From contig JAUNUK010000001.1 in assembly GCA_030538185.1 (NCBI GenBank), forward strand, positions 112,296 to 176,295: a stretch of 64,000 nucleotides of DNA, given 5' to 3'. Below, piece after piece: positions 227 to 62,871 of the stretch (the first letter of the stretch is position 1; the number at the start of each line of letters is the position of its first letter). The stretch comes from Actinomycetaceae bacterium. Lineage in GTDB: Bacteria; Actinomycetota; Actinomycetes; Actinomycetales; Actinomycetaceae. The notes under the pieces were generated by a model. It did no database searches and was not told where the DNA came from. It saw nothing but the letters and a program-made list of their open reading frames with translations. Made by a program: the position numbers and the translations under genes.

Positions 227-1646
227 TTATTCCGAACTGCCTGAACGTACAGATGTGGTAGCGCGCGATTGCATCCGTTTACAAGGAATTAGCGCCCAAG
301 GCTTTCACGGCGTCCACGACTTCGAACGTCAAAATGGCCAAGCATTCAGCATTGATGTCGCCATATTCCTCGACACTCGGGCGGCCGCCTTGAGCGACGA
401 TCTGGACAAAACCGTCGACTACTCTGTCCTGGCCACCCAGCTTCAGGCGCTGCTGACGGGCGAGCCGCTATTCCTGATCGAGCGCCTGGCCGAACGCGCA
501 GCCTTCATCGTCCTTTCAAACCCCCTGGTCGAGGCCGTCGACATCACAGTCCACAAACCCGAAGCGCCCCTGGGTGTCGCCTTCAGGGACGTCAACGTCA
601 CAATCCGCAGGGATCGCGCCGACTACGAAGCCTACAGGGGGCAGGGCTTGAGCATCACGGATTTTTCCTTCGAGTCAGAAGAGTTTGCCGAGGGCGAAGT
701 CCCTGAGTCTGCCGCGGTGTCACAGGGGGTGGCAGACGCCCTCGTCGATGGGCATGTGGAAAACCCGCTGGATGTGCGACCTGCGCAAGCGCGCGAAATC
801 GTTTTGGCCCTCGGCTCAAATTTGGGGGACCCTGTGGGGACCTTGAGGGTGGCCGTGGCTAAGCTGCGGGGCTTGCCGGAGTTGCAGGACGTGAGGGTAT
901 CGCCTTTGGCCAGGACACAGGCGGTTTTGGCCGAGGGGCAAGTGCCCCAACCGGATTACTACAACGCGGTTATTGTGGCGCGTTCTGTGTTGTCGGCGCG
1001 TGAGGTATTAGCTGTCGCGCAGCGTTTGGAGGATACGCACGGCAGGTTGCGTGATGAGCACTGGGGGGCCAGGACCCTGGACGTGGATGTGATTTCGATC
1101 GAGGGGCTGGAGTCTGATGACCCAGCGTTGACATTGCCGCACCCCAGGGCCTACATGCGGGCTTTTGTGTTGCGTCCTTGGGCTGCCTTGGATCCCGGCG
1201 CGTTTTTGGGAGGGGTGCCCGTCGAGGAGTTGGCCAAGGCGGCCGTGGACGGGCCAGGTGTCAAGCGCTTGTGGCACGAATGGTTAGAGCCGGGGACAGT
1301 GACTCGGGCACAGGAGGTTGTGTCTGCGGAGGATATTGGTGCTGGTGGGCTTGAGACCGGTGGCGCGGGGGTGCTTGAGGGCAGGGCCTTCATTGGAGGC
1401 GCTCCCGTTGAGGTGCGTGGCCTAGAGATGCTGGCTTTGCCGTCTTGGGAAGATGCCATAGAGGGCAGAAGCCCCCGAATCGTGGACGACAGCGGAGTCG
1501 ATATCCTGCGCGGCGAAGACATGGTGACAGGTGACAATGCTGGTACTGGGGAAGGTGCGGGTTCGCCCTCGGAAAAAAATATGACGGAACAAGCCCGGCG
1601 CAGTGGTTTGTTGCCGCGCTGGCCATCTTTGCGCGGGGAGCAGTGA
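219..1646 (+). CDS. folBK: Bifunctional dihydroneopterin aldolase / HPPK (FolB-FolK fusion)
   Basis: 475 residues from ATG 219, preceded by GGAGGGG. An upstream in-frame ATG at 177 lies inside folP and is rejected. Residues 1-140 are FolB: they open with DCIRLQGISAQGFHGVHDFE and continue to VDITVHKPEAPLG. Residues about 195-345 are FolK, with ALGSNLGDP, YYNAVIVA, GARTLDVDVI and LPHPRAYMRAFVL, the pyrophosphokinase signature. Together they convert dihydroneopterin to the diphosphate that FolP uses. A poorly conserved linker (about 145-190) and a 110-residue acidic C-terminal extension each carry one copy of the CCGAGGGCG motif (688-696 and 1564-1572). The fused arrangement is known in some actinobacteria; the long tail is unusual. 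Confidence 0.92.
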   Translation: MVDYSELPERTDVVARDCIRLQGISAQGFHGVHDFERQNGQAFSIDVAIFLDTRAAALSDDLDKTVDYSVLATQLQALLTGEPLFLIERLAERAAFIVLSNPLVEAVDITVHKPEAPLGVAFRDVNVTIRRDRADYEAYRGQGLSITDFSFESEEFAEGEVPESAAVSQGVADALVDGHVENPLDVRPAQAREIVLALGSNLGDPVGTLRVAVAKLRGLPELQDVRVSPLARTQAVLAEGQVPQPDYYNAVIVARSVLSAREVLAVAQRLEDTHGRLRDEHWGARTLDVDVISIEGLESDDPALTLPHPRAYMRAFVLRPWAALDPGAFLGGVPVEELAKAAVDGPGVKRLWHEWLEPGTVTRAQEVVSAEDIGAGGLETGGAGVLEGRAFIGGAPVEVRGLEMLALPSWEDAIEGRSPRIVDDSGVDILRGEDMVTGDNAGTGEGAGSPSEKNMTEQARRSGLLPRWPSLRGEQ

Positions 1647-2158
1647 TGGGGCGCACGCGGGTTCGTGTACTGGTGGGGCTGTATGTAGGGGTTGCCGCGG
1701 TTGTTTTGGCGGCCGTCGTGCTGGTGATCCGTTTTGGGTGGATCCCGCCCTTGGTCTTGTCCGGGTCGGCGGTGTTGTTGCTGGTGGTAGCCGCAGTGTT
1801 GCTGTTTTTCGGGTTGGCCGTGCGCAAGTTGAAACGGCGTCAAAGGACGTGGATCACTTTGATTGGGGCGGCCAGGACCGCGGCGGCTGCCTTGGCATGT
1901 ACGCATGCTTCAGCGATTTTGGGCGGGTATTTCACCGGGCACTTGTTGGCGTCCTTGCTGCACATGCAAGCGACGTACATGGCTGCGCAGGCGTGGGCGG
2001 CAGCAGTGGACTTGGTGGGGTGCGGTGTTTTATTGGGCGTGGCGCTGCTGGTAGAGCACTGGTGTGCCATTGACGAGGACGACGAGGAACGCAAGAAACG
2101 TGGTGTTGGGGGAGCTGGTGGGGTCGGCCCCACATTCCCCGGAGCCGCCCCGGCCTGA
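1646..2158 (+). CDS. DUF3180 membrane protein
   Basis: 170 residues from ATG 1646, which overlaps the folBK stop as TGATG; GTG 1643 is a possible alternative. Hydrophobicity shows four membrane segments (about residues 8-30, 34-58, 78-105 and 118-140), an Arg/Lys-rich loop after the second, and a charged cytoplasmic tail. DUF3180 proteins of this size follow folK in many actinobacteria, and the position supports the call. Function is unknown. It is the last gene of the folate operon here; the 183 bases downstream hold only one motif copy at 2168-2176. Confidence 0.8.
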   Translation: MGRTRVRVLVGLYVGVAAVVLAAVVLVIRFGWIPPLVLSGSAVLLLVVAAVLLFFGLAVRKLKRRQRTWITLIGAARTAAAALACTHASAILGGYFTGHLLASLLHMQATYMAAQAWAAAVDLVGCGVLLGVALLVEHWCAIDEDDEERKKRGVGGAGGVGPTFPGAAPA

Positions 2159-2341
2159 GCCAATTTGCCGAGGGCGACGTCCTAGTGGGTGTGGACGGTT
2201 CCGTGTGGCCCCGTTCGTTGTGGCTGGTGTCGGGTTTTGTCGTTTGGGCGGGGCACGACCCCCGCCGACCCTCGCAGCAGCAGCCACAAAGAAAACCTTG
2301 ACCCAAGCAGGCGCAAACCGCCATGCGACGCCTGCTTCAAG

Positions 2342-3030: not shown

Positions 3031-3119
3031 TAAGTTTAGGAGCATCCCGCCTCTTTTACAAGTCGAAGACTAAGGCAGCTTCGGAAAGCGAGGGTAAGAG
3101 CCAAGTTTTTCCCGGATTG

Positions 3120-3128
3120 CCGAGGGCG
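3120..3128 (+). repeat. CCGAGGGCG motif copy, intergenic
   Basis: ATTGCCGAGGGCGG, a full consensus copy of the dispersed motif, lies between the divergent antitoxin and cell-wall-protein genes. The rest of the 3031-3292 gap is G/T-rich on the + strand and shows no convincing promoter boxes. Confidence 0.85.
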
Positions 3129-3292
3129 GTGTTGTCGTGGGTGGGGGTTCACCCTTGTGGGTGGTTTTTGGGTGTGATTTTCACCCTTTTGGGTATTCCT
3201 TTGGGTTGGTGTGGGTGTTTATGGTGGGGGTGTGGGGCGTATTGGCGCGTCCGGGGATCCGCATGTTTCATCTCTTGGGGAGGGTGTTTGTC

Positions 3293-5223: not shown

Positions 5224-5404
5224 ACGCGTAGATTTGGTGTGTGCCGGCGGTTACGACGCATCTTTCGCCCTCGGAAATGAAATGGGTGGATGGTCGGTGG
5301 GCGCGATAAAAGTGGGGGACGTCGGTACCTTCCTTTCGGGGGCTTTGGTCTGAGATACTTGGGGGGATTCGTTTGTCCATCTCTTCATCTCTCCGGGAGT
5401 CGAC

Positions 5405-6142
5405 ATGTACCCACAGCCGCCGCAAAATCCGCAAGGGCCGCAGTATCCGCCGCAGCCGCAGGGCCAAAACCCGCAAGGACCGTACCCACCCCAACAGCCG
5501 GGGTGGCAGCCTGCGCCCAAGGCCACAGGCCGGCCGCTGCTTGTTGTCGTCGTGGTCCTGGCGGTTTTGGCTGTTGTCCTGGTCGCTTCCTTAGTGTTTG
5601 TGCTGGTCACCAAGAAGGATAATGTGGCCAAGCCGAGTGGAAGCCCCACTGCGTCCGTTACTCAGACCGAGGGCGGAAAGACGCCCACGAAAGCACCCAC
5701 AACCAGCAGCAGTACTCCTGTTACGAAACCCCCTACGGAGTCGAATGAAGCACCAAACATTGCGAACTCTGAGGCCTTCGTTTCCTACGAAAGCGAGGCT
5801 TCGGGACTGGAATATGCGGAACACGTAACCTTGGGCCCAGGTGAACCCGACGCCCGGATCGTTTTCTCCACAGACGGTGTGCTCCGCGACTTCAGGGTCC
5901 TGGCCTTGGAATATGCGGAATCTGGCGGGGACGGTAACGGAGTTGGCGGTGTCAATTTCACAACGCAGGTCGTCCACAGGGCAGGAGACCTGCACACCAT
6001 GCACCCCTTGCTGGTGGACGTGACCTTCTTTGGGACCATCCCCAATAACGGCATTTCCTACGTGGACCACACGGGTAAAACCCGGTACTTCGCAGTCCAA
6101 GAGTCCGGCAAAGACGGCTCCCTGTCCCTCATGGAGTTCTAG
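5405..6142 (+). CDS. Proline-rich single-pass membrane protein, unknown
   Basis: 245 residues from ATG 5405 with GGGAG upstream. The first 40 residues are a Pro/Gln/Gly-rich cytoplasmic tail (repeats of PQGP and YPPQ), then a Val/Leu membrane segment at about 44-68, a Ser/Thr/Pro-rich linker to about 115, and a compact extracytoplasmic domain of about 125 residues. This layout is common in actinobacterial surface proteins (DUF4352-like). I do not recognise the outer domain with confidence. It stands alone between two family A palindromes. Confidence 0.75.
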   Translation: MYPQPPQNPQGPQYPPQPQGQNPQGPYPPQQPGWQPAPKATGRPLLVVVVVLAVLAVVLVASLVFVLVTKKDNVAKPSGSPTASVTQTEGGKTPTKAPTTSSSTPVTKPPTESNEAPNIANSEAFVSYESEASGLEYAEHVTLGPGEPDARIVFSTDGVLRDFRVLALEYAESGGDGNGVGGVNFTTQVVHRAGDLHTMHPLLVDVTFFGTIPNNGISYVDHTGKTRYFAVQESGKDGSLSLMEF

Positions 6143-6641: not shown

Positions 6642-6650
6642 CGCCCTCGG
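6642..6650 (-). repeat. CCGAGGGCG motif copy next to a ribosome site
   Basis: Minus-strand copy (CGCCCTCGG on +) in the short gap between the ACT gene and UPF0210, ending 15 bases before the GTG start and just upstream of its AAGGA ribosome site. Confidence 0.8.
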
Positions 6651-6665
6651 CGAATAAGGACATAC

Positions 6666-8778: not shown

Positions 8779-8855
8779 ACTGCAAGCAAGAAGGCGCTGG
8801 CCGCAGTCTTGAACACACGTCTGGCCTCGAACTGCGCCCTCGGGCAAAGGCAAGG

Positions 8856-10820
8856 CTAGGACTGTGGGGCGGCGGGCAGCCAGATTTCAAAGGTTGTGCC
8901 CGAACCCACCGGGTCATCCAACAGGCGCACAGTCCCCCCGTGCGCCTGGGTCACTGCCTTGACGATCGACAGCCCGAGCCCCGTGGATTGTGACGATGAT
9001 CTTGCGGAATCCGCCCTCGCAAATCTGTCAAAAACTTTTCCACGGACTTCGGGTAAAATCCCTGGCCCCTCGTCGTGAACCCACACGGCCACGTGGTCTG
9101 CCCTGCCTTCGCTGCGCATCAACCTGCCAGCCAAAGTCACCTTTGTGCCGGCAGGCGTGTGTTGGCGCGCGTTGGACAGCAGGTTCGCCACGATCTGACG
9201 CAGGCGCGCATCATCGCCCACGACCAGCAGTTGCGTCTCATCCACGGGATACCACACCGGTCGGACATACCGCAGGGGCGTCGGTATCGGTGCACGGACC
9301 TTCGCTTTGCCCTTCGGCGGGGTTTCTTCAGTGGCCGAGGGCGGCACAGTAGCAGGGGGCGCGGCCGAGATGTGCGACTGCTGTCCCGCTGCCTCCATGA
9401 TTGGCATCAGGAACCAGGGCAGCGAACTGCTTGAGGTCTCTGTTTCGTCCTGCAGGGCAGGGATGTCAAGAACCCAGGCGTGGGTGGGAGCCATGACATG
9501 CGCGTCGGCCACAGAGTCAATCAATACGGCAGAGATGTCAATGAGTTCACGTTCCAAGGGGCGCCCAGAATCCAGACGCGCCAATAACAATAAGTCTTCG
9601 ACCAGGTAAGACATGCGTCCAGCCTCGGAGCGGATGCGCGTAATGGCCTGCAGCTGATCCGGAGGCACGTTGAGCTGAGAGAGCAGCTCAGAGTATCCGG
9701 CAACGGAAGCTAAAGGGGTGCGCAGTTCATGAGAGGCGTCTGCTACGAACTGTCTGGACCTGGCCTCGGATGCCTCGCGAGCAGACAGCGCAGAAGACAC
9801 GTGTTCAAGCATGGTGTTCATGGCCTGACCGACCTCGCCGATCTCGGTATTGGGTATGGCGTCGCGGGCCGGTATGCGCACATCCAACTGGGGCGAGCCA
9901 AAGCCGAGGTCGCGATTCGACACCTCTTTGGCGACAGCCGCGACACGGGCCAAAGGTTGGAGATCGTGGCGGATAATGACCCATACAACAAGGGCGGCCA
10001 ACATGGCTCCCGCAAGGGAGAGCAATAGGCCGCGCATGGCAAACAGCCAGACAGCTTGTTCAATCAGATCCAAAGGAAGACCGACAATCACGGTGACTAC
10101 TTGAGTATTTTGTTGCTCGGCAAGCTTCGTAGCCTGGGATACGTTCCGCGTTTGGAGCCACTTGCTTGCGCCCAAACTTGGGGCGGGAACCAGGTATTGC
10201 CTGGCCAGGCGGTAGCTGCCTAATTCCTGTAACTGCTGTGTGGAGATTTGCTCTTGGGTTTTTTCTTGTAATTCAATGCTGGTGCCCGGGGTTAAGGCTA
10301 CGACATCGTAATCGTAGACAACCATGGCCGAAGCAATTGTTTCGCCCACGGTCACTAGCTGCAGAGCCCCAAAATGTGACTCAGCCTTGAATAACGCAGA
10401 GCCAAGTCCAAGCCTTTTGGACTGTTGACCATCAGGGTTATCCGTGGTGCCTGGGGTATTTCCTTGGGTGGTTGAATCTTGATTCTGATTGTTGGCCTCC
10501 CCTTGTGGCGAGTTGAGGGGATTGGATGGTTGGGTACTACTTTGCAGGTCCTGCGCGCTTTGCACGCCATTATTGAGGGCGCGTTCCAGCTCAATGTCGG
10601 TTTGACTTAGCATGTAGCCGCTCATTGCCCAGGAGGAAACCAAGGAAACACTGGCAGTTATCAAGACCACCACGATCGCGGTGAGGGCAGGCACCCTCAA
10701 AGACAGGGCGCCGCGCCCATAATGTATCTCTTGCGTAGGATTTAGGAACGTCCCAGGTGGGGGAGCGCTTGAGGCGTCTGAGGAATCGTCCTTGTGTAGG
10801 CGCGCAATCTTCCTCCTCAC
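8856..10820 (-). CDS. Sensor histidine kinase
   Basis: 654 residues from GTG 10820, overlapping the regulator stop by 4 bases. Order: cytoplasmic tail, membrane segment (about 45-68), a Gln/Asn/Ser-rich extracytoplasmic sensor of about 180 residues, second membrane segment (about 262-285), HAMP, HisKA with phospho-acceptor in FVADASHELRTPL, and HATPase with NLLSNARQHTP, DEGPGI and GLGLSIVK. An insertion of about 65 residues rich in Ser/Pro/Ala (about 9250-9450) separates HisKA from the ATPase N-box and contains the motif copy 9335-9343. It belongs to the OmpR-partner kinases; the signal is unknown. Confidence 0.92.
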   Translation of the reverse strand: MRRKIARLHKDDSSDASSAPPPGTFLNPTQEIHYGRGALSLRVPALTAIVVVLITASVSLVSSWAMSGYMLSQTDIELERALNNGVQSAQDLQSSTQPSNPLNSPQGEANNQNQDSTTQGNTPGTTDNPDGQQSKRLGLGSALFKAESHFGALQLVTVGETIASAMVVYDYDVVALTPGTSIELQEKTQEQISTQQLQELGSYRLARQYLVPAPSLGASKWLQTRNVSQATKLAEQQNTQVVTVIVGLPLDLIEQAVWLFAMRGLLLSLAGAMLAALVVWVIIRHDLQPLARVAAVAKEVSNRDLGFGSPQLDVRIPARDAIPNTEIGEVGQAMNTMLEHVSSALSAREASEARSRQFVADASHELRTPLASVAGYSELLSQLNVPPDQLQAITRIRSEAGRMSYLVEDLLLLARLDSGRPLERELIDISAVLIDSVADAHVMAPTHAWVLDIPALQDETETSSSSLPWFLMPIMEAAGQQSHISAAPPATVPPSATEETPPKGKAKVRAPIPTPLRYVRPVWYPVDETQLLVVGDDARLRQIVANLLSNARQHTPAGTKVTLAGRLMRSEGRADHVAVWVHDEGPGILPEVRGKVFDRFARADSARSSSQSTGLGLSIVKAVTQAHGGTVRLLDDPVGSGTTFEIWLPAAPQS

Positions 10821-11776: not shown

Positions 11777-12592
11777 TTGCCGCTTTACGGTCAAAGGGTG
11801 AGACCAACACCTTCTGCCACACCACGCCCAGGTAGACGCGGCCAAGCATTGCCGAGGGCGGCACAGGGGACATCTGGAAGGCGAACACCTGGGGGCGGAA
11901 AACCTGCGGGGAAAAAGACAGAAGCTGGAGTGTCCGGGGGCAGAAAACCTGTAGCTCGAAAACCTGTAGCCAAAAAACCCAGGAATAAAAAACCTCGTTC
12001 AAAGGCCAGCATTTGGGCAGCGAGGGCACTGGTTTTAGCTGTTTTACTGTTCTTCGTCGTGGGCGTCATCTTTGGCGTAAAAGCAATAATTGCTGCGATT
12101 GGCGGTGCCTTCGAATCGAATGCGAAGGCCAGCGCCGAAATGGCCCAGGAGAACAAAGAGGCGGAGGAAAAAGCTGCGTCTGCGGCAACGCATGCACCTC
12201 CACAGCCCTGCACGGCCCAAGAACTGGGTTTCCAGGCATCTTCCCCCTCGGGCGAATTCGGAGTGGGTGCAGGGGCAATCTTCGGGGTAGAGGTCACTAA
12301 TAAAGGGACGCTGCCTTGCCTCATGGACAGCGGACCTGGGACTCTGGGAGTTCAATTGCGTTCAGGGAACCAAATTATTTGGACCTCGGCCACCTGCGGG
12401 GCAGGTTCTGAACCTGTGCAGTTGCTTTTGTCCCCGGGGGATACCTGGAGCGCCCAAATCCCTTGGCATGCGCGCGTTCAAGGCCCAGAATGTGGGGTTG
12501 CCGGGGGCATCGCCAAAGCCGGCACGTATCGCGTGATCGCCATGAAGGATGGCAATGCCCTGGGTGAAGAACGGGTTTTCGTCCTGCATTAG
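11777..12592 (+). CDS. Single-pass membrane protein, DUF4232-like outer domain
   Basis: 271 residues from a TTG start with GGGGAAA 8 bases upstream. A basic Lys/Arg/Pro-rich tail of about 75 residues has several KPVARKP-like units, then a membrane segment (about 80-108), a charged coiled stretch (about 112-135), and an outer domain with four cysteines (PCTAQEL, LPCLMDSGP, TSATCG, GPECGV). The spacing resembles DUF4232 domains. Copy 11852-11860 of the motif encodes LPRAA in the tail. It is divergent from the two-component operon. Start codon uncertain. Confidence 0.7.
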   Translation: MPLYGQRVRPTPSATPRPGRRGQALPRAAQGTSGRRTPGGGKPAGKKTEAGVSGGRKPVARKPVAKKPRNKKPRSKASIWAARALVLAVLLFFVVGVIFGVKAIIAAIGGAFESNAKASAEMAQENKEAEEKAASAATHAPPQPCTAQELGFQASSPSGEFGVGAGAIFGVEVTNKGTLPCLMDSGPGTLGVQLRSGNQIIWTSATCGAGSEPVQLLLSPGDTWSAQIPWHARVQGPECGVAGGIAKAGTYRVIAMKDGNALGEERVFVLH

Positions 12593-12619: not shown

Positions 12620-12628
12620 CGCCCTCGG
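12620..12628 (-). repeat. CCGAGGGCG motif copy, intergenic
   Basis: Consensus minus-strand copy (CGCCCTCGGAAAT on +) between the membrane gene stop and disA. Downstream of it a GTAACC hexamer is repeated (12639-12655), possibly promoter-related, but no clear -35/-10 pair was recognised. Confidence 0.75.
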
Positions 12629-12742
12629 AAATGTTGTAGCGTAACCAATCTGTAACCGGTCAAGACGGGTTAAGTAAAGACAATCCTCGTAGACTGGGCA
12701 TGAGTTTGGGACACGCTAGTGCAGGACAACACCGAGGCAGGC

Positions 12743-13810
12743 ATGACAGATAACGACACCTTGCGCGAGGTCTTGGTGTCGCTGGCGCCTGGAACCCAGC
12801 TGCGTGACGGTTTAGAACGCATTATCCGAGGGCGGGGCGGTGCCCTGATCGTGATGGGATATGGCCCAGACGTCCAAGCCCTGTGCTCGGATGGTTTCGA
12901 AATGGATGTGAAGTTTTCACCTCAAAGGTTGCGCGAACTGTGCAAAATGGACGGCGCGGTCCTGCTAAGTGAGCCTGATTGGCGGATTCGACGCGCCAAT
13001 GTGCAGCTGTTGCCTGACCCCTCGATTCCCACACTTGAGTCTGGGATGCGTCATCGTACCGCTCACCGTATGGCTGTTGAGACCGGCGTTCCGGTCATAT
13101 CCGTGTCCCATTCCTTGCAAACCATTGCCTTGTATTTCGGTTCGCAGCGCTACGTGTTGGAAGATTCGCGCGTCCTGTTGGGGAGGGCAGACCAAGCGCT
13201 ATCCACCCTGGAAAAATACAAGTCCCGTCTGGAAGAGATCACTGCGACGCTGTCTGCCCTTGAGATTGAAGACTTTGTCACCTTGAGAGATGTGGCCTTG
13301 GTGGTTCAACGCATGGAGATGGTGCGTCGCATTTCTTTCGAGATAGAGGGTTACGTTACGGAGTTGGGCACTGATGGGCGTCTGCTGTCGATGCAATTGG
13401 ATGAGCTTATTAGGGGCACAGCGCGGGAACGCACGAGGCTTTTGCGCGATTACGCACCGCGCGGGGCAAGTCTGACGGAGATGGAGGACGCAATTCAAGC
13501 CCTGAGCGCCACCGACATTATGGACCTGTCTTTGCTGGGTCGTATTTTGCAACCGGGGTTGCACGGCGTTGAGGGTCTTGACTTGGGTCTTCACCCGCAC
13601 GGGTATCGCATGTTGGCAAAAATTCCCAGACTTCCTTTCGCTGTGGTCGAAGCACTTGTGATCCACTTTGGCGAATTTCAGGCGCTGTTGCGTGCCAGCA
13701 GCGAGGATTTACAGGAAGTGGAGGGTGTGGGACCGCAGCGGGCCAATATTATCCACGATGGCCTGCAAACAGTCGCCGCCAACGCCTCTCTTTTGTCGAC
13801 TTTTTCTTAG
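12743..13810 (+). CDS. disA: Diadenylate cyclase DisA
   Basis: 355 residues from ATG 12743, chosen over GTG 12719 because GAGGCAGG precedes it and the length then matches the family (about 355-360). The N-terminal DAC domain shows DGAVLLS (metal-binding Asp) and SGMRHRTAHRMA (ATP-binding RHR). A helical linker follows, and a C-terminal helix-hairpin-helix region with VEGVGPQRANII binds branched DNA. It makes cyclic di-AMP and monitors DNA structure. It lies next to radA, as commonly seen in actinobacteria and Bacillus, where RadA modulates DisA. Motif copy 12826-12834 encodes IRGRG. Confidence 0.96.
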   Translation: MTDNDTLREVLVSLAPGTQLRDGLERIIRGRGGALIVMGYGPDVQALCSDGFEMDVKFSPQRLRELCKMDGAVLLSEPDWRIRRANVQLLPDPSIPTLESGMRHRTAHRMAVETGVPVISVSHSLQTIALYFGSQRYVLEDSRVLLGRADQALSTLEKYKSRLEEITATLSALEIEDFVTLRDVALVVQRMEMVRRISFEIEGYVTELGTDGRLLSMQLDELIRGTARERTRLLRDYAPRGASLTEMEDAIQALSATDIMDLSLLGRILQPGLHGVEGLDLGLHPHGYRMLAKIPRLPFAVVEALVIHFGEFQALLRASSEDLQEVEGVGPQRANIIHDGLQTVAANASLLSTFS

Positions 13811-18875: not shown

Positions 18876-18884
18876 CGCCCTCGG
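18876..18884 (-). repeat. CCGAGGGCG motif copy, intergenic
   Basis: Minus-strand copy (CGCCCTCGGAAA on +) in the short convergent gap between DUF1846 and the PIN toxin. Confidence 0.75.
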
Positions 18885-19547: not shown

Positions 19548-19675
19548 TTCTACAGGCGTGTGTCGTGTGAATCAACGGTGATGTTCCTTTGAGTTTTCTA
19601 TGGTGCTTGGCTTGTGTGGCATTGGCTCAAATTTTCGTCCGGCTTCGTGTCCAGGGTGGCGGGTAGTGTGTGGGT

Positions 19676-43395: not shown

Positions 43396-43445
43396 GCAAC
43401 CAGCATAGACATATTGGGCGAGTCGCTGGCTTGAGAAAAACATTG

Positions 43446-43454
43446 CCGAGGGCG
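43446..43454 (+). repeat. CCGAGGGCG motif copy, divergent promoter region
   Basis: Consensus copy ATTGCCGAGGGCGG in the 181-base gap between menB and the 43577 membrane protein gene; nothing else was recognised there. Confidence 0.85.
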
Positions 43455-47652: not shown

Positions 47653-49299
47653 ATGAAAATGAGCGATCCGAATACCACTACGCCTGGAGAGAATACCGGC
47701 AACGGCGTAAACGAAACTCCCGATGCCAGGGCCAGTTTCGAGGGCGGGGCGCAGCAGACGAACACCTGGAGTGCTCAAGGAACCTCGTACCCTAGCATCT
47801 CGGGGAATGTGTCCGTGCAGACCACTCACGCTCAGCCGCAGACACCTGGCCAGATGGGCGGGGCTCAGATGGCTGGCGGAACAAGCTATCCGCAGGTCGG
47901 TGTGCCCTTTGCTGCCCCTTCTAGGGCTCCCGGGCAGGCAGGGCAGGCTGGAGGACTTGGCCAATCTGGCCAACCTGGCCAAACAGGTCAACCGATGGCA
48001 TCAAACCCCTTTGGCCCGCCAGCAGGCATGCCAGCTACCGGTAGCGCCTACACGGGTGGTGCCCCCGGCACCAAGGCTGCCAGGCGTGGCCCCGGTTGGT
48101 TTTCTCTTATTGCCGTATCTGCGCTGATGGCACTGTTGGCCAGTGGTGGCACCTACGCCGTGCTCTCATTGGATAATCAACGCCTTGCCGCAGAATCCAA
48201 TACATCGAAACTCTTTGACAATTCGGACAGCGATTCTGCTTCGGGGGCGGTCGCGGAACCAGTCACAAACTCCACCTCCGCACAGCCTGATTGGGAGGCT
48301 GTCGCCTCAGCGGTGCGCTCCACAGTGGTGGCTATCCAGGTAGTCACTCAAAACGCTGGTGACCAGGGATCGGGCGTTATCTTGGATCATGATGGGCGCA
48401 TCCTGACCAATAACCACGTTGTGGCCTCGGCGGCCCAGGGTGGAAAAATAACCGTGGTTCTCTCGGACGGCCGGGTATTTGCGGCCTCGATCGTTGGCCT
48501 AGACGCCATGACGGACCTGGCCGTTATCAAGATCGACACCCCGCCCTCGGATCTGACCGTTGCCACCTTGGGCGAGTCGGCGAATCTGAAGGTTGGACAG
48601 GCCGTCGCCGCCATCGGAAACCCCCTGGGGTTGTCCTCCACCGTGACCACTGGGATCATTTCGGCCTTGGACAGGCCCGTCACGGTTCAGCAAAGCGACG
48701 CACAAACCCAAGAAGTCGACCCCAATGATCCCTTTGGGTCCTTCGGCAGGCAACAACAGGGCAGCACCGGCGGCACTTTGACGACGACCAACGCCATTCA
48801 GGTAGACGCCTCGATTAACCCAGGAAACTCTGGGGGGCCGCTCTTCGACGCCAAGGGCAGGGTGATTGGGATTAACTCCTCGATTGCCTCACTATCCAGG
48901 GGATCGTCAGGACAAGCAGGATCGATTGGCCTGGGCTTTGCGATCCCAGTGGACTTGGCGCAGATGGTCGCCAAGCAATTGATCAGCAACGGTGTGGCAG
49001 AACACGCCTTCCTGGGGGTCGGTGTAGGAGACGGGACCGCAACCGTCGACGGTGTGACGCGCCTGGGTGCCAAGGTCCGCACGGTCTCGCAGGGGACGGC
49101 TGCAGAAGAGGCAGGAGTAAAGGCCGGTGACGTGATTGTTGCGATTGATGGTAACGAGGTGGGCTCTGGTGAGGCGCTGACTGGGTGGGTGAGACGCTAC
49201 CCTTCAGGTTCTCAGGTGAGGTTGACGATCGTCAGGGACGGTAAAGAGTTGCAGCTCAACGCATCCTTGCGTACGCGCTCAGATGCGCAGCTTCAGTGA
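47653..49299 (+). CDS. HtrA/DegP-type serine protease with PDZ domain
   Basis: 548 residues from ATG 47653 (or ATG 47659), with AGGAG upstream. A Gln/Gly/Pro/Ala-rich cytoplasmic region of about 150 residues, membrane helix (about 153-175), then trypsin-like domain with ILTNNHVV (His), MTDLAVIKID (Asp) and NPGNSGGPLF (Ser), and a PDZ domain from about 455. Surface quality-control protease. Exact motif copy 48542-48550 lies near the catalytic Asp strand and a one-mismatch copy in the N-terminal region. Confidence 0.94.
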   Translation: MKMSDPNTTTPGENTGNGVNETPDARASFEGGAQQTNTWSAQGTSYPSISGNVSVQTTHAQPQTPGQMGGAQMAGGTSYPQVGVPFAAPSRAPGQAGQAGGLGQSGQPGQTGQPMASNPFGPPAGMPATGSAYTGGAPGTKAARRGPGWFSLIAVSALMALLASGGTYAVLSLDNQRLAAESNTSKLFDNSDSDSASGAVAEPVTNSTSAQPDWEAVASAVRSTVVAIQVVTQNAGDQGSGVILDHDGRILTNNHVVASAAQGGKITVVLSDGRVFAASIVGLDAMTDLAVIKIDTPPSDLTVATLGESANLKVGQAVAAIGNPLGLSSTVTTGIISALDRPVTVQQSDAQTQEVDPNDPFGSFGRQQQGSTGGTLTTTNAIQVDASINPGNSGGPLFDAKGRVIGINSSIASLSRGSSGQAGSIGLGFAIPVDLAQMVAKQLISNGVAEHAFLGVGVGDGTATVDGVTRLGAKVRTVSQGTAAEEAGVKAGDVIVAIDGNEVGSGEALTGWVRRYPSGSQVRLTIVRDGKELQLNASLRTRSDAQLQ

Positions 49300-49410: not shown

Positions 49411-51846
49411 ATGGTGCATTCTTTGACCCTCGCTCTTCCTGATGACATAACTGCGGCTCTGCAAGAGGCGAATACTTGCGGAAACCTGACCGAAATTACT
49501 GACTCGACGGGTTCTTCGCCGCAATACCTGTGGATGCACCCCACCCTCGGACTGGCTGGCTGGGGGCAAACTTGGAGAATCTCAACGTCGAAACCTGCCC
49601 AGGAACAATCGCCCGAAGCAGGCAGTGAGTCATCAACGCAGCAGACCCCGGAACTTGAAGCGGCCACTGCCGCAACGCAGGAGATCCAGGTCGATCCGAC
49701 CATCGCCCACGGGGCAGCAGCCTGGGCGGTTTTGGTAGCACATTCACAGGTGATCGACCGCGTGAACAGGCCAGGTACAGGCCTGTGCGCCTTCGCCTCC
49801 TTTGGTTTCAGCCCAGACACCCTGCCCGTTTTGGTCGTGCCCGAGTTCATCATCGGGGTCGATGCGCACAGTGCCTGGATGACCCACACTGCCCTCGCCG
49901 GCTCTGAAACAGAGCTGGAAGCTCGACTAGAGCAAGAGATAGAGGAGCTGCGGCGCCAGCTAACTGTCGGCAGCGCCGACAGCGCCGACGCCGCCACCTC
50001 GGTCGACGCCGCAGACACCAGCGACACCCCAAGGCTGGCCCTCTCAGCCCGTCCAATGTCTGCAGGAGGAATCACCCTGCGCGATTCCTGGAGCAATTCA
50101 GATGCCTTCGCCCCCGGTTTCACTGAAGAGCTACACAGGCACCTAGATGTGCAGGTCGTAGGCCTAAATGACTCTCAGTGGGAGGCCTCCGTTCGCAACC
50201 TTGCACGCCGCTTACGACGCGGTCAGGCAGAAAAAGTTGTCTTGGCTCGCGCCATGGACGCCACCTTCAAGGCAAGCAAAAAAAACATTTCCGAGGGCGA
50301 CACCTCCAAGGATGTGCCCCGCGCACAGTTCGAGGCCTCAACCATTGCTCACTACCTGGCGCAAAACGCACAGGACTCTTGGATCTACGCAGTTGACGGC
50401 CTGGTCGGAGCCACCCCTGAAATGCTGGTCGAAATCAGTTCCGGCGTGGTCAAATGCCGGGTCTTGGCCGGCACTGGGGACCCGGCCCACCCGCAGGAAC
50501 TGATGCGCTCGGAAAAAGATCTGCGCGAACACGTCATCGCCGTTGAGTCCGTCACCAGCGCATTAACCTACTGTTGTACGGATATTACCGCTTCGCCCTC
50601 GCCAGAAATCTTGCCTCAACCCACCTTGGCGCACCTGGCCTCCTCTGTTAGTGCCCTGCCCGAAAAGGGCGCTTCGGTCCTGAAGGTGGCGGCCGCGCTG
50701 CATCCGACAGCCGCCGTGTGCGGAAGGCCCACCACCACGGCAGCAGAGATCATCCAGCAGGCAGAAACCGAGGGCCGAGGGCGGTACGCAGGGCCTGTGG
50801 GCTGGGTAGATGCCTTGGGTGAAGGGCAACTGGGGCTGGCATTACGATGCGGGCAGATCGACTCCGAGGATTCAGGCACGATCCGGGTTTATGCAGGTGC
50901 TGGCATTATGCCGCAGTCTCGGCCAAGGCTGGAGCGTGCAGAGATCCAGGCGAAGATGGCGCCCGTTTTTGAAGCACTTGTTGCCTGTGCCCAGGAACTT
51001 TACAGCGAGGCGGAGTCGCGCGAAGGTGGTGCGAGGGTGGACAATGGTGCCGTGGGAACGCGTGCGCATATGGATAAGGACCCGAAAGAGGTCGCCTCAA
51101 TGTTTGACCAGGTCGCCAAGAAGTACGACCGAATGAATGACCTGGGATCCTTGTATCAGACAAGGCAGTGGCGTCGCGCCGTAAAATCGGCGATTGCGCC
51201 AGTGGCCGGGATGAAGGTTTTGGATGTGGCGGCCGGAACGGGGACCTCGACGGCTATTTTGGCGCAAGATGGCGCCGAGGTGATCGGCGTGGACTTGTCC
51301 GAGGGCATGATCCAGGTTGGGCGTGAACGCCATCCGAATTTGACTCTATTGCAGGCAGACGCTTGTGACCTGCCCTTTGGCGATGATGAATTCGATGCGG
51401 TGACCATTTCCTTTGGGATCCGCAATGTGCAAGAACGCGAGCTTGCACTGGCAGAGTTCCTGCGTGTGACGAAACCAGGGGGACGCCTGGTGATCTGCGA
51501 GTTTTCGACGCCAACCTTCGCTCCCTTGCGCTGGGCCTATCACAAGTGGCTGCGTATTGTGATGCCGCGCATGGCCGCGGTGGCCTCCTCAGACTCTTCC
51601 GCCTATGAGTATCTGATCGAATCCATCCTTGAATGGCCGGCTCAGACTGCCTTTGGGCGGGAGTTGTTGGCTGCCGGATGGCAGGATGTGGCCTATCGGA
51701 ACCTGACGGGCGGCATTGTGGCGCTGCACAGAGCTACGAAGCCCTGGACCATCGACGACGCTGTGGACGCGGACGTTCCAGTAGCCGATGCGATCGATGA
51801 AACCGCAAGCACCGAAGAACCTGCTGAGGAATCTGACTCAAAGTAA
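49411..51846 (+). CDS. Isochorismate synthase fused to demethylmenaquinone methyltransferase
   Basis: 811 residues in a single uninterrupted frame. Residues about 1-535 are a MenF/EntC isochorismate synthase (KVVLARAMDATF, GATPEMLVEISSGVVKCRVLAGT, LHPTAAVCGRPT, AGAGIMPQSRP). Residues about 553-790 are UbiE/MenG (VASMFDQVAKKYDRMNDLGS, VLDVAAGTGTSTA, VTISFGIRNV). They catalyse the first committed and the last step of menaquinone synthesis. ATG 51069 begins the second domain but lacks a good ribosome site. Motif copy 50290-50298 falls in a 20-residue insertion of the first domain; another at 50775-50783. Confidence 0.9.
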   Translation: MVHSLTLALPDDITAALQEANTCGNLTEITDSTGSSPQYLWMHPTLGLAGWGQTWRISTSKPAQEQSPEAGSESSTQQTPELEAATAATQEIQVDPTIAHGAAAWAVLVAHSQVIDRVNRPGTGLCAFASFGFSPDTLPVLVVPEFIIGVDAHSAWMTHTALAGSETELEARLEQEIEELRRQLTVGSADSADAATSVDAADTSDTPRLALSARPMSAGGITLRDSWSNSDAFAPGFTEELHRHLDVQVVGLNDSQWEASVRNLARRLRRGQAEKVVLARAMDATFKASKKNISEGDTSKDVPRAQFEASTIAHYLAQNAQDSWIYAVDGLVGATPEMLVEISSGVVKCRVLAGTGDPAHPQELMRSEKDLREHVIAVESVTSALTYCCTDITASPSPEILPQPTLAHLASSVSALPEKGASVLKVAAALHPTAAVCGRPTTTAAEIIQQAETEGRGRYAGPVGWVDALGEGQLGLALRCGQIDSEDSGTIRVYAGAGIMPQSRPRLERAEIQAKMAPVFEALVACAQELYSEAESREGGARVDNGAVGTRAHMDKDPKEVASMFDQVAKKYDRMNDLGSLYQTRQWRRAVKSAIAPVAGMKVLDVAAGTGTSTAILAQDGAEVIGVDLSEGMIQVGRERHPNLTLLQADACDLPFGDDEFDAVTISFGIRNVQERELALAEFLRVTKPGGRLVICEFSTPTFAPLRWAYHKWLRIVMPRMAAVASSDSSAYEYLIESILEWPAQTAFGRELLAAGWQDVAYRNLTGGIVALHRATKPWTIDDAVDADVPVADAIDETASTEEPAEESDSK

Positions 51847-52363: not shown

Positions 52364-53374
52364 TTAGGCCTTTTGTGGGGAGGGGAGGCGGGTGGTGGTC
52401 CAGGTGATTGTTAGGGCCAGTAGCAGGGTGATGCTTAGGCCGACCAGTCCTGCGGCGGAATTGCCGAGATTGCCGAGGGCGGGCAGGGCGTAGTCGGCCA
52501 GGGGCGACAATGCCATCACGGAATCTTGGGCAGCGCCCTCGAAACCTAAAGCGCCTGCCACGAACTCCAGGCCGTCGGGATGCGAGGAAGCCAAGAGGGA
52601 AAGGCCTCCGGCGGTTAAGGCAGAAGCACCCAAAGCCGCCCGAGCTAAAACCTTCAAGGGAACACGTGTGTTTGCTGCCTCGCCAAGCTTGGCGTCCTTG
52701 CAGGCCCAGACCATATCGGGGCGCAGGGCAACGACAACCGCGACAACGGCAAGAGTGATTGCGGCTTCGCCGACGCCAATCAGTGCGTGCCAGCCCAGCA
52801 TATTGGCGGCCAAAGCGCTCAAGGGGATCGCGACGGCACCGCCCGCAGCGTAAAAGGCGACGAAGGTCAGGGCAGCGGCAGGGACGGACGCCAAGGCCGC
52901 AATGCCTGCGCCCACAACGGCTGACCGGCGTCCCTTGGCGACGCGGCCCATCAGGGCCATAACGCCGTAGGCGGCGAAAACACCAACGACTGCCATCAGG
53001 ACAATGTTCACGCCCAGGGCCATAATGCCGCCATCGGCGAAAACGAAAGCCTGCACGGCTAAAACGCTGGTCAATATCAATACTGCAGTCCAAGGACCGA
53101 CAAGAGCCACGGCCAAAGCCCCGCCCAAGAGGTGCCCCGACGTTCCAGATGAAACAGGGAAGTTGATCATTTGGGCGGCAAAGATTGCGCCTGCGACCAG
53201 GCCTGCGCGCAGTACGCCAACCTTGCCCAGGGGACCTAGTTCTGCGCGAGAACGCATAAGCGCCACAACAATAAAGCCCAGGGCCACGACCCATGCGGCC
53301 AGAGAAACCGGGTGATCCAAGAACCCGTCGGGTGTGTGCATAACAGGCATAACAGCAGCGTTATTAATAGTCAT
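52364..53374 (-). CDS. cbiM: Cobalt/nickel ECF transporter CbiM with CbiN-like domain
   Basis: 336 residues from ATG 53374 (start somewhat uncertain; ATG 53341 begins MHTPDGFLD). The family-defining MHTPDGF metal-binding N-terminus, a ground-state seven-helix CbiM body and a C-terminal SSHPDGLEFVAG unit typical of CbiN/PDGLE fused in. Imports Co or Ni with CbiQ/CbiO, which are not in the window. The upstream gap 53375-53707 holds motif copy 53476-53484 and no convincing cobalamin riboswitch box. Motif copy 52473-52481 is in the last helix region (ALGN repeated). Confidence 0.9.
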   Translation of the reverse strand: MTINNAAVMPVMHTPDGFLDHPVSLAAWVVALGFIVVALMRSRAELGPLGKVGVLRAGLVAGAIFAAQMINFPVSSGTSGHLLGGALAVALVGPWTAVLILTSVLAVQAFVFADGGIMALGVNIVLMAVVGVFAAYGVMALMGRVAKGRRSAVVGAGIAALASVPAAALTFVAFYAAGGAVAIPLSALAANMLGWHALIGVGEAAITLAVVAVVVALRPDMVWACKDAKLGEAANTRVPLKVLARAALGASALTAGGLSLLASSHPDGLEFVAGALGFEGAAQDSVMALSPLADYALPALGNLGNSAAGLVGLSITLLLALTITWTTTRLPSPQKA

Positions 53375-53707
53375 GCCTCGAATATATGCCTGCGATACGA
53401 CAGGCGCACCGTATTTCACTCCCTTGCCTGGGTAGCTGGGGTGTTGGATTGTGCCACACCCGCAAGCGCCTCTTTCGCCCTCGGGGATAATTATGAAAAC
53501 ACTGACGTTGCCAATAAAGGTTTCTCGAAGTCGAGATAAAACACCCCGCCCCGTACTCAAATCCTGCGAAAGTTGGCGAAAAACAGCCGATTCGATTCAA
53601 AAAGTCCAGCAAGCGCCTCTAAAGTGGGTAGGGTAAGTTTGAACTTTGCGTTCGGCTGGGAGTGCCCCGAGCCGGGTTGCGCCAAGAAGAGTTCGCGCGG
53701 AGGAAAG

Positions 53708-58898: not shown

Positions 58899-61510
58899 TG
58901 ACACCCCCAGTTCAAGACCTGGTTACCATTTCTATCGACGGCAAGGCCGTTGAGGTACCCAAAGGAACCCTCGTTATTCGCGCTGCTGAACAGGTTGGCG
59001 TACACATCCCACGCTTTTGTGACCACCCCCTACTGAAACCAGTGGCCGCATGTCGCGCCTGTTTGGTTGATGTTGCGACCCCAGGCAGGGACGGCACCAT
59101 CCAAAAGATGCCCAAGCCACAACCGGCGTGTTCCACAACGGTCACACCCGGCATGGAGGTGGAAACCCAATACACCTCTGAAGTGGCAAAGAAAGCACAA
59201 GAGGGCGTCTTGGAATTCCTCTTGGTCAATCACCCTCTGGACTGTCCTGTGTGTGACAAGGGCGGCGAATGTCCCCTTCAAAACCAGGCAATGTCCGATG
59301 GTCGCGCAGACTCACGTTTCACGGGAGCCAAACGCCTGCAGGCCAAACCGGTACGCCTAACCTCCGAAATCCTGCTTGACCGCGAACGCTGCATCCTTTG
59401 TCAGCGCTGCGTGCGCTTCGGCAAAGAGATCCCCGGCGACGCCTTCTTGGACCTCCAAGGCCGCGGCGGCGGTGCCTCCCCCCTGGACGCTCACGGTTTC
59501 CTGGGCGAACAGATCGGCAACTTCGACACACAGATCCTGGGCTTCGTCGACGAGGCCGACAACCCTGACGGGCACACAACGACACGCACAGAGTCCCTCA
59601 CCGGGCCCTGTGGTGAAGCCGGCCTCATCGGTTCAGCCCACGCAGGCCCCGTCAGCCTCGAAGACAGGGATCTCTCGGGCAGGGCATTCTCGTCCTATTT
59701 CTCGGGCAATGTCATCCAGATCTGTCCAGTCGGCGCACTGACAAGCGCAACCTACCGTTTCCGTTCACGGCCCTTCGACCTCGTTTCCACCCCGTCTGTC
59801 ACCGATCACGATGCCAGCGGTGCGGCTATCCGCGTGGATGCCCGTCGCGGCCAGGTCCTACGCCACCTGGCCGGCGAAGACGCGGAGGTCAACGAAGAAT
59901 GGCTGTCTGACAAGGATCGTTTCGCTTTCACCTGGCAGGCTTCCCCCGACAGGCTGACTTCCCCCATGATCAGGGCCGAGGACGGCACGCTGGTAGCGAC
60001 CTCGTGGCCAACGGCCCTGCGCGCAGCAGCCGAGGGGCTGGCCAAGGCAAAAGCAGCCAATGGTGTAGCCTTCCTGCCCGGTGGGCGTCTGACATTCGAA
60101 GATGCCTACGCCTGGTCCAAGTTTGCCCGGGTTGTGGCAGGTTCAAATGCCATTGATTTCCGTGCCCGCACTTGCACCCAGGAAGAAGCCGACCTGCTGC
60201 GCGCCGACGTAGCAGGCTCTGGCCTGGGAGTGACCTATGCGGATGTCGAAAAGGCTCCACAGGTCTTGGCCGTGGGCTTCGAAGCGGAAGATGAATGCGC
60301 CACGCTGTACCTGCGTCTGCGCAAGGCCGTAGATGCCGGGACCACCAAGGTCTGTGTCTTGTCCCCCTTCACAACGCCAGGGTCCAAGAAACTCAAAGCC
60401 ACAGTGTTAAAGGCACAACCAGGTACAGAAGCTGAGGTCATCGCGGCTATCACCAAAGATGCCGAGGGCGGCCTCGGCAATCTGGCCACCTCGCTAGGAC
60501 AAGACGGCTCGATCATCTTGCTGGGCGAAAGGGCTGCCGACACACCGGGCCTCATCACCCAGGTGCGTGCCCTGGCACAGCGCACGGGTGCCCGACTGGC
60601 CTGGATTCCTCGCCGCGCAGGTGAGCGCGGCGCCCTGGAGGCCGGCTGCTTCCCGAATCTGCTTCCTTTTGGCCGCACAACCGAGGATGCGGAAGCGCGC
60701 GCGGATGTGGCCGCGGTTTGGGGTGTTGACTCCTTACCGGACGCTCCGTTCAGGTGCCAAGAACGCATCATCGAATACCTCAACGAGGACAAGCTATCCG
60801 CCCTCGTCATTGGGGGAGTCGACCTGCGAGATATGCCCGAACAAGATGCAACCCGTGCCGCCTTAGCCAATGCGGATTTCGTCGTCCAACTTGAGGTGCG
60901 CCACTCGGCCATCACCCCTGATGCTGATGTCGTATTCCCGGTGGCGCCCCCGCATGAGAAGGCAGGCACCTTCATCAACTGGGAGGGTCGCTTGCGTCCC
61001 TTTGGCCAGGCATTGACGTCCAAGGAACTGTCAGACCATGCGGTCTTGGACCGACTGGCTAAAGCCAGTGGTGTTGACCTGGGCACCTATACCCTGAAAG
61101 AGATCCACACAGAGCTGGCCCAGTTGAAGGACTGGGACGGTGCGCGTGCGCCTTTCAGGGACAAACCGATGAACCAAACCCCGGTACTGCAGCCAGGACA
61201 AGCCGTCCTCGGGATGTGGAAGCCTTTGTTGGACGCGGGAAGGTGTCAAGACGGTGAACCTCATTTGGCGGGAACCTCGCGCGTGCCCGTGGCCCGCGTT
61301 TCTGCCGCAACGGCAAAGGCCAATAACCTACAAAGCGGTGTTGCTTTGAGCACCGATAAGGGCGTCATTACGTTGCCCCTCGTGGTGACTGATATGCCTG
61401 ATGAGACCGTATGGGTGCCCCAGTGTTCTGCCGGGTCTACGGTTTATGCAACCTTGGGTGCCGCCTACGGTGCCGTTGTTTCACTCAATCCTGCGGAGGT
61501 GACTCAGTGA
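58898..61510 (+). CDS. nuoG: NADH-quinone oxidoreductase subunit G
   Basis: 870 residues from ATG 58898. N-terminal [2Fe-2S] in CDHPLLKPVAACRACLVD, 4Fe-4S ligands in CPVCDKGGECPLQNQ and CILCQRCVRFGKEI, and a molybdopterin-oxidoreductase-like body. Motif copy 60462-60470 is followed by an inverted partial copy, together making TGCCGAGG-gcgg-CCTCGGCA (60461-60480), encoding AEGGLGN in a variable part. Confidence 0.96.
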   Translation: MTPPVQDLVTISIDGKAVEVPKGTLVIRAAEQVGVHIPRFCDHPLLKPVAACRACLVDVATPGRDGTIQKMPKPQPACSTTVTPGMEVETQYTSEVAKKAQEGVLEFLLVNHPLDCPVCDKGGECPLQNQAMSDGRADSRFTGAKRLQAKPVRLTSEILLDRERCILCQRCVRFGKEIPGDAFLDLQGRGGGASPLDAHGFLGEQIGNFDTQILGFVDEADNPDGHTTTRTESLTGPCGEAGLIGSAHAGPVSLEDRDLSGRAFSSYFSGNVIQICPVGALTSATYRFRSRPFDLVSTPSVTDHDASGAAIRVDARRGQVLRHLAGEDAEVNEEWLSDKDRFAFTWQASPDRLTSPMIRAEDGTLVATSWPTALRAAAEGLAKAKAANGVAFLPGGRLTFEDAYAWSKFARVVAGSNAIDFRARTCTQEEADLLRADVAGSGLGVTYADVEKAPQVLAVGFEAEDECATLYLRLRKAVDAGTTKVCVLSPFTTPGSKKLKATVLKAQPGTEAEVIAAITKDAEGGLGNLATSLGQDGSIILLGERAADTPGLITQVRALAQRTGARLAWIPRRAGERGALEAGCFPNLLPFGRTTEDAEARADVAAVWGVDSLPDAPFRCQERIIEYLNEDKLSALVIGGVDLRDMPEQDATRAALANADFVVQLEVRHSAITPDADVVFPVAPPHEKAGTFINWEGRLRPFGQALTSKELSDHAVLDRLAKASGVDLGTYTLKEIHTELAQLKDWDGARAPFRDKPMNQTPVLQPGQAVLGMWKPLLDAGRCQDGEPHLAGTSRVPVARVSAATAKANNLQSGVALSTDKGVITLPLVVTDMPDETVWVPQCSAGSTVYATLGAAYGAVVSLNPAEVTQ

Positions 61511-62871
61511 ACGCCCTCGTCATGTCGATACCCGCTGTAAATCAAGCTGTAAATCAAGCTGTGCAACCAGCGGCTGTAGAGGACATATTTGTGGATGACA
61601 CTTGGTGGATAGCGCTGATAAAAGCTGTGTTCATCGTGGTATTCCTGATTGTGTCCGTCATCTTGGGGCTGTGGGTCGAACGGCGCCTCATTGGGCGCAT
61701 CCAGACCCGCCCGGGGCCAAACGTGCGCGGCCCCTTGGGGCTGTTTCAGGCCTTGGGGGACGCCGGAAAGCTCATCTTCAAGGAAGATTTCTGGCTGCGC
61801 GGGGCTGATACCCTCATCTACCTGCTGGCTCCGATCATCTCTGCCACCACGGCTTTCGCCGTGTTCGGGTCGATTCCTTTCGGGCCGGTCGTGAACATCT
61901 TTGGGATCAGCACGCCCTTGCAGCTCTTTGACTCCAGCGTGACGGTCTTGATCATCTTGGCCATCACCTCGGTTGGCGTCTACGGCATTGTTTTGGGTGG
62001 CTGGTCTGCGAATTCTCCCTACCCCTTGCTGGGTGCTGTGCGCTCAACGGCACAGATCATCTCCTATGAACTGGCAATGGGGCTGTCCTTGGTCTCTGTC
62101 TTCCTGGTTTCAGGTTCCATGTCGACCTCGGAAATTGTTGAGGCCCAAAGTTCTGTGTGGTGGTGCTTTACCCTACTGCCGGCCTTTATCATCTACATGA
62201 TTTCAGTCTTCGGCGAAACCAACCGCCTGCCCTTTGACCTGACCGAATGTGAGGGCGAACTGGTCGCCGGTTACATGACCGAGTACTCCTCCATGAAGTT
62301 CGCCTGGTACTACCTGGCCGAATACATCAATATGTTCAACGTCTCTGCCGTGGCAGTGACCTTGTTCTTGGGCGGATGGCGTGCCCCCTTCGGTCTGTCG
62401 CTGGTCAACGACGGCATGTTCAACGAGGGCTTCTGGCCGATGCTGTGGTTCTTGGGCAAGCTGTGGGTCCTGTTCGCCACCTTCGTATGGGTGCGCGGAA
62501 CCCTGGTGCGTTTCCGCTACGACCAGTTCATGAACTTCGGGTGGAAGCGCCTCATCCCGATTGCCTTGCTGTGGTTGGTGGCCGTGGCCGTCATCCAGGC
62601 TTTCGTCCAGTTCTCTGCCGTCGAGGTTGACAAGCTGATGATCGGGATTGCCGCCGTGTGTTTGGTGGCCTTCGTCATCCTGTGGTTCGTGCCAGAAAAG
62701 AAACCGGCTCCGCCTCCCATCGAGGGCGCCTTTGACCCGATGGCGGGGGGCTTCCCAGTGCCACCTATGCCGGGCCAAGTTCTTCCGCCTTCGCCGAGGG
62801 CGGGCCGTATGAAGGTCGCGCATGCCATAACGCCTGCCGCATTAGGCGACAAGGAGGGCCACAATGAGTGA
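61507..62871 (+). CDS. nuoH: NADH-quinone oxidoreductase subunit H
   Basis: 454 residues from GTG 61507, with GGAGGTGA 5 bases upstream; the longer reading inside nuoG is rejected. Eight helices; [21 protein letters not shown] and [22 protein letters not shown] identify NuoH. The N-terminus has a tandem VNQA repeat and the C-terminal 60-residue Pro-rich tail holds motif copy 62794-62802. Confidence 0.96.

Follow-up and report, generated by a model that had tools for sequence, protein, structure and literature searches.

Sequence-marked DNA uptake has been described in Neisseriaceae, where the receptor ComP goes with a DNA uptake sequence (DUS), and in Pasteurellaceae, which carry an uptake signal sequence (USS). 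According to the available parts of the cited papers, the DUS is a short, high-copy motif that forms dialects with a rigid core and lies at permissive or intergenic positions (PMC3630211), the USS evolves by point mutation and joins a core to a weaker AT-rich flank (PMC1939737), and the Pasteurellaceae have two dialects and a type IV minor pilin, PpdA/ComN, as receptor candidate (PMC12616744). In a 64-kb stretch of DNA from a member of the Actinomycetaceae (the window), the core CCGAGGGCG recurs on both strands, and an initial annotation had noted its resemblance to such uptake sequences. The full motif is written here as ATTKCCGAGGGCGR; CGACGNCG is a separate word contrasted with it. It shares with the DUS and USS the motif features listed above, but its sequence differs from both, and it occurs in a Gram-positive phylum with another pilus class, Tad/Flp, no N_methyl pilin being found in the genome that holds the window (G000) or in 44 of 45 other genomes of the family. 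We consider it probable (roughly 0.78), judging from genome comparison, that ATTKCCGAGGGCGR serves this member of the Actinomycetaceae as a DNA-uptake signal, comparable in function to the Neisseria DUS and Haemophilus USS. We class it as DUS/USS-like and not as a proven member, because the class is defined by uptake preference, and we do not count it as related to the ComP system.

The actinobacterium Micrococcus luteus offers a further comparison. The available portions of two papers state that it requires Flp/Tad pili for natural transformation (PMC6370729, PMC6916266) and that its genome carries comEA, comEC and two tad-like clusters (PMC6370729). G000 has the same set, with the difference that no ATPase gene stands beside its Rv3654c-type pilins; the loci are likened by gene content, not homology. 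The available text of PMC6370729 makes no mention of an uptake sequence in M. luteus, and that of PMC10526031 states that no such sequences have been reported in mycobacterial species. A survey of the open-access literature (titles and abstract starts, with preprints and subscription journals outside its scope) found no report of an uptake sequence in Actinobacteria or Actinomycetaceae.

The window contained 45 exact copies of CCGAGGGCG, 25 on the plus and 20 on the minus strand. The initial annotation had counted 44 (24 and 20), so its minus-strand count was exact while its total and plus-strand count were each one short; the span it gave, 688 to 62802, does hold the first and last copies. 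Across 100 dinucleotide shuffles of the window, the core appeared 1.06 times on average and at most 5 times, in agreement with the one or two copies predicted earlier from base composition. The 13-mer ATTKCCGAGGGCG was present 19 times, as annotated, and 0 times in the shuffles. By a simple gene caller of our own, 10 of the 45 copies were intergenic. The motif is not restricted to the window: the 2.42-Mb G000 genome (six contigs) contains 1,084 copies of the core (563/521 by strand), compared to 25 of a reversed-pattern control. In 444 kb of its sequence, CCGAGGGCG was the most over-represented 9-mer (217 versus 5.8 under an order-2 Markov model). A short, non-palindromic motif on both strands in such numbers matches DUS and USS, which number hundreds to thousands per genome.

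The form of the motif was derived from 234 copies in a 480-kb sample of G000, which gave the consensus A(0.57) T(0.66) T(0.72) G/T(0.83) CCGAGGGCG G/A(0.77). Conservation around the core was largely confined to about −4 to +9; beyond the consensus every column held 0.22 bits or less, and the remainder resembled codon rhythm with a faint upstream A/T bias. Of the 27 one-base variants, strong enrichment was limited to substitutions at the first base of the core (T 8.6-fold, A 7.6-fold, G 4.1-fold) and at the seventh (A 14-fold, T 5-fold, C 4-fold), and variants elsewhere reached at most 2.5-fold. Consequently, the rigid part of the motif is CGAGGNCG (CGAGG-N-CG).

A frequent short word can arise in other ways. 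It could be a by-product of GC-rich codon usage, specifically of Glu-Gly and Asp-Ala codon pairs; CGAGGGCG and CGACGCCG match frequent codon pairs, and coding DNA favours one frame. In the 480-kb sample, where genes came from our own simple caller and coding and noncoding counts are therefore approximate, coding DNA nevertheless held 183 copies of the core versus 14.2 ± 4.6 in synonymous-codon shuffles that preserve proteins and codon usage. The 58.8 kb of noncoding DNA held 51 copies versus 0.66 expected, the density being highest between genes, which bears out the placement in tolerant positions that had been annotated. This refutes the codon explanation for G000, and we give it almost no weight; it stays in play for the high-GC relatives G003, G027 and G037, in which ACGACGNCG reached 1.8–2.3 times the codon shuffle, and for G002, G006, G007 and G021, on counts only. 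Intergenic density was 1.05 copies per kb between convergent, 0.78 between divergent and 0.86 between codirectional genes. A strand-oriented chromosome signal, such as a Chi-like recombination hot spot or a guide for FtsK like the FtsK-orienting polar sequences (KOPS), would agree with a short, asymmetric, G-rich and genome-wide motif. Chi and KOPS signals are strand-polarised, whereas the strand share here was uniform over 27 segments of 16–21 kb (chi-square 11.3, 26 degrees of freedom, p 0.99) and the majority-strand share was 0.584, compared to 0.71–0.81 in simulations of 75% polarity. The near-even strand use first seen in the window thus holds locally as well as genome-wide, and we regard a polarised signal as very improbable. 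As a separate observation, the strands were used more evenly than random placement would give (0.584 versus a simulated 95% range of 0.592–0.669 for the 27 segments).

The high copy number could also suggest a dispersed mobile repeat resembling repetitive extragenic palindromes (REP) or miniature inverted-repeat transposable elements (MITE), as could a few closely spaced inverted pairs with a hairpin-like appearance. Four of the five pairs no more than 60 bp apart were inverted and some resemble hairpin terminators; they are too few for a terminator claim. Against a repeat, little is conserved past ~14 bp over the 234 copies, and a gap was found at just 7 of 227 directed site comparisons between relatives. 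No conserved unit is copied as an insertion, and the REP/MITE explanation has practically no credence. These comparisons covered five locus pairs of motif-bearing congeners, taken in both directions (which are not independent). Specifically, 52 of the 227 sites (23%) retained the motif, under a test that allows one variable base at the homologous site and so raises the retained share somewhat, and 168 showed substitutions only; the motif evolves by point mutation in these relatives. Control 8-mers of similar GC content were identical between congeners in 12% of cases. Most sites therefore move, a minority is retained above background, and the overall density is maintained, which is expected from uptake-driven accumulation and unlike a fixed regulatory site. 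Motif-bearing and motif-poor congeners shared few sites (1/14, 0/6, 0/6, 0/2 and 0/2 kept), and G022 and G052, close motif-poor species with 93% identity, kept 9/16. Density kept despite site turnover, together with balanced strands and a coefficient of variation in spacing of 0.87 (a value that short stretches bias downwards), would also suit a site bound by a protein that organises the nucleoid or chromosome, with selection and not uptake holding the density. The several-fold differences in abundance among congeners and the clade-wise change of dialect described below would be odd, though possible, for a general chromosome function. No protein of this kind was identified, although no search was directed at one, and we judge this explanation unlikely.

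In the family, dialects of the motif fit one scaffold, CGASGNCG: some genera use CGAGGRCG and others ACGACGNCG, and several have little or none. De novo 9-mers were obtained for 35 genomes and refined to motifs in 34 (G005 was omitted, its sequence being too short). The CGAGG type was clear in 9 of the 34 and the ACGACG type (ACGACGNCG) in 5, and G008 had a third form (CGAGGCC..GG), CGAGGCCG, with 20 noncoding copies versus 1.01. The remaining 19 have no firm dialect assignment; among these, G003, G027, G028 and G037 tend to CG-rich ACGACG-like words. Whole-genome counts of CGAGGRCG were 2,091 in G000, 3,300 in G026, 3,434 in G069 and 2,058 in G090, where ACGACGNCG numbered 108, 81, 200 and 89, respectively. 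The balance was opposite in G031 (223 CGAGGRCG, 1,579 ACGACGNCG), G023 (129, 1,039) and G001 (226, 1,160); in high-GC genomes both words are frequent and raw counts do not discriminate. Noncoding DNA contained ACGACGNCG 13 times versus 0.54 in G030, 6 versus 0.17 in G031, 11 versus 0.40 in G078 and 5 versus 0.48 in G025, with just 1 versus 0.14 in G016. CGAGGRCG occurred 25 times versus 6.1 in coding DNA of G010, also one of the 19 without a firm assignment. Another G010 word, GATGGTGACGG, was set aside as a dialect for its strand bias (43/53 on the plus strand; L066, L067, L117; L numbers denote loci), and its abundance perhaps comes from repetitive proteins.

The G000 9-mer was also frequent in G090 (645 versus 16 for the reversed pattern), G076 (424 versus 13) and G026 (363 versus 18), and it was lower in the congeners G048 (83 versus 22), G072 (163 versus 33), G022 (74 versus 26) and G052 (73 versus 35). 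The summed coding excess of CGAGGNCG over the codon shuffle was about twofold in these four and about eightfold in G090, and the motif-poor state of the four could be decay. No motif excess for G014 appeared among the matches listed. In a tree of ComEC from 38 genomes (one gene, with long branches), the nine rows labelled CGACG need two changes, as few as in 0/500 shuffles, and lie in a 12-row group with support 100/99. This clustering leaves the limits of the dialect open-ended, as G003, G027 and G037, unlabelled or off the tree, also exceed the shuffle. The ten rows labelled none, a label that takes in motif-poor congeners, need seven changes (100/500 shuffles as low). Labels of G001, G017, G023 and G028 come from counts, and in G017 the two words number 737 and 709. 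We read the CGAGG form as probably the older, with repeated weakening and a switch to CGACG.

The family was recognised as Actinomycetaceae from the pilus locus of G016, which matches the corresponding loci of Actinotignum schaalii and A. sanguinis at 80–87% DNA identity. The codon control was also applied to 78 of 80 named loci, those of at least 10 kb, and the following values are among the best 22 and 18 rows. The A. schaalii and A. sanguinis loci had 8 versus 0.9 and 5 versus 0.7 coding copies of ACGACGNCG, with 5 and 3 noncoding copies. Outside the family, the best 22 and 18 of the 78 included L162 of Arthrobacter subterraneus (18 versus 5.0) and L127, from an Actinomycetales metagenome-assembled genome (MAG), with CGAGGRCG at 30 versus 13.8. 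A stretch from an Acidobacteria MAG (L181:1-11241), among the same best rows, had 7 coding copies of ACGACGNCG versus 0.5, which may reflect chance or the misbinning of an actinobacterial contig.

Prophages in relatives were depleted of the motif. Of 24 genomes of motif-bearing genera, 10 had HK97-type capsid genes, and a prophage was taken as 7 kb on each side of the capsid gene, with element ends not mapped. The 14 stretches so defined, from nine relatives (a weak match in G088 was left out), held 62 motifs versus 195.6 expected from host density, about one third. ACGACG-dialect prophages held 1, 1, 1, 3 and 2 copies versus 12.1, 18.4, 18.4, 16.6 and 5.2 expected (the last resting on a 20-kb host sample), and their GC content was near or above that of the host, save in L219. 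Relative to the codon shuffle, prophage genes in relatives had 56 copies versus 32.8 and host genes 666 versus 113.1, the prophage excess stemming mainly from genus g27. A capsid gene search of G000 found none, and of its four tyrosine recombinases, two were inspected in three surrounding stretches that showed no clear prophage. Consequently, no depletion is claimed for G000.

The comEC, comEA and tad genes, which the initial annotation had named as the ones to look for, are present in the G000 genome, as is dprA. ComEC (PF03772) was found in 46/46 family genomes examined and DprA in 47/48. The NCBIfam ComEC domain scored above the cut-off and the full-length model below it; in G000, ComEA lies directly upstream of ComEC, with TIGR00426 passing and TIGR01259 below the cut-off. 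An Rv3654c-type Tad locus (B-locus, C6:191051-193377) encodes a platform protein, a DUF4244 Flp pilin, a TadE minor pilin (NF041390) and an Rv3654c-family protein (TIGR03816). A second tad cluster (C1:483894-488402) has an ATPase, two platform proteins and TadE (PF07811), as well as a Flp-like and two further small genes assigned from position only. This second cluster seems not to be needed for the motif; the motif-bearing G069, G087 and G031 have a single PF00482 match each. Type IVa (N_methyl) pilin PF07963 was not found in G000 and in only 1/46 family genomes, which argues against a ComP-type receptor in G000. Loss of the B-locus pilins was considered as a cause of the motif-poor state and rejected, as the DUF4244 Flp pilin occurs in 79/80 genomes and TadE and Rv3654c-like proteins in motif-poor congeners. 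The fetched stretches of G087 and G010 contained neither TadE nor Rv3654c-like proteins. At L114:9625-9966, recombinase genes adjoin the truncated DUF4244 pilin gene of G087, and a match to the 3' part of this gene is found on another contig.

The resemblance to uptake sequences that the initial annotation proposed is supported by each of these sequence-based tests: the motif is genome-wide, exceeds codon usage, is nonpolar and not a repeat, turns over between relatives, forms dialects and is depleted in relatives' prophages. From these observations and the genes present, we infer an uptake preference, a receptor and a drive behind motif gain. A surface receptor, most likely a Tad/Flp minor pilin from the Rv3654c-type locus, would bind motif-bearing DNA; we place it on the Tad pilus because natural transformation of M. 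luteus needs Flp/Tad pili. The pilus would hand the DNA to ComEA and ComEC, a single strand would enter, and DprA and RecA (the latter assumed) would recombine it. If motif-bearing DNA of kin is preferred, mutations that create or improve copies would spread, and copies would consequently build up on both strands at tolerated positions throughout the genome. A change of receptor would let the genome drift to a new dialect, and loss of the preference would let copies decay.

Several observations weigh against an uptake signal. In genus g27 the prophages show weak depletion, with none in L224 (13 versus 13.7), and prophage coding DNA in this genus exceeds the codon shuffle (L224 12 versus 1.7, L228 10 versus 1.9). 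The motif-poor G048, G072, G022, G052 and G014 keep ComEC, DprA and the B-locus pilins, so that the genes examined do not account for motif abundance. Conversely, G087 bears the motif, yet neither TadE nor the Rv3654c-like protein was found in its fetched stretch, where recombinase genes break the locus. No TadA gene stands beside the B-locus platform of G000; the ATPase was found in the second tad cluster. The prepilin peptidase PF01478 was not detected in 8/48 genomes, including the motif-bearing G026, G055, G079, G031, G058 and G080; the gene may have diverged or be truly missing there. On the ComEC tree, the nine rows labelled CGAGG require six changes, 49/500 shuffles being as low, and are not significantly clustered. 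The literature surveyed contained no uptake or competence experiment on this organism.

With these points included, we still lean towards a broader reading, if less firmly: that these would be the first DNA-uptake sequences outside Proteobacteria, family-wide self-recognition dialects of Actinomycetaceae, recognised through a Tad/Flp (type IVc) instead of a type IVa pilus and independently evolved in a Gram-positive phylum. If so, the several dialects and motif-poor lineages would suggest that sequence-marked uptake is a repeated outcome of transformation and not a peculiarity of two families, and the motif would make it testable whether uptake bias alone writes a signal into a genome. It also points to natural transformability, present or past, in a number of Actinomycetaceae, for which the candidate receptor pilins together with motif-tagged DNA could open the way to genetic work.

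The individual copies in the window are located as follows. Intergenic cores CCGAGGGCG lie at 2168..2176 on the plus strand and at 6642..6650, 8835..8843, 18876..18884 and 53476..53484 on the minus strand. The extended 13-mer is intergenic as ATTGCCGAGGGCG at 3116..3128, 11848..11860 and 43442..43454 (plus) and as ATTTCCGAGGGCG at 5266..5278 and 12620..12632 (minus). Two extended copies fall within the radA frame, both on the minus strand: ATTTCCGAGGGCG at 14530..14542, close to the end of the frame, and ATTGCCGAGGGCG at 15850..15862. Further copies of ATTGCCGAGGGCG are found at 28595..28607, 40632..40644 and 52469..52481 on the plus strand and at 31776..31788, 40754..40766, 42954..42966 and 47487..47499 on the minus strand, and of ATTTCCGAGGGCG at 19684..19696, 31489..31501, 32602..32614, 39062..39074 and 50287..50299, all plus. 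The other cores on the plus strand are at 688..696, 5667..5675, 9335..9343, 12826..12834, 13903..13911, 17815..17823, 25164..25172, 26942..26950, 30235..30243, 33821..33829, 50775..50783, 60462..60470 and 62794..62802, and those on the minus strand at 1564..1572, 17001..17009, 24971..24979, 27821..27829, 30370..30378, 41808..41816, 45696..45704 and 48542..48550.

Some other genes were noted in passing. On contig C3 of G000, L204:16736-19009 and L205:1058-10476 encode four large similar proteins with the common start MSTSTVRKFGVGIASLALVA, close to one another and to a tyrosine recombinase; they may be an array of recombining surface proteins. In the window, 3137-5005 and 19670-21664 encode proteins with three CWB2 cell-wall-binding repeats, one of which has an NlpC/P60 domain. 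A single open frame of 811 amino acids at 49411-51846 (plus strand) is an apparent MenF-MenG fusion, with an isochorismate-synthase-like domain at ~251-523 and a demethylmenaquinone methyltransferase domain at ~550-778.

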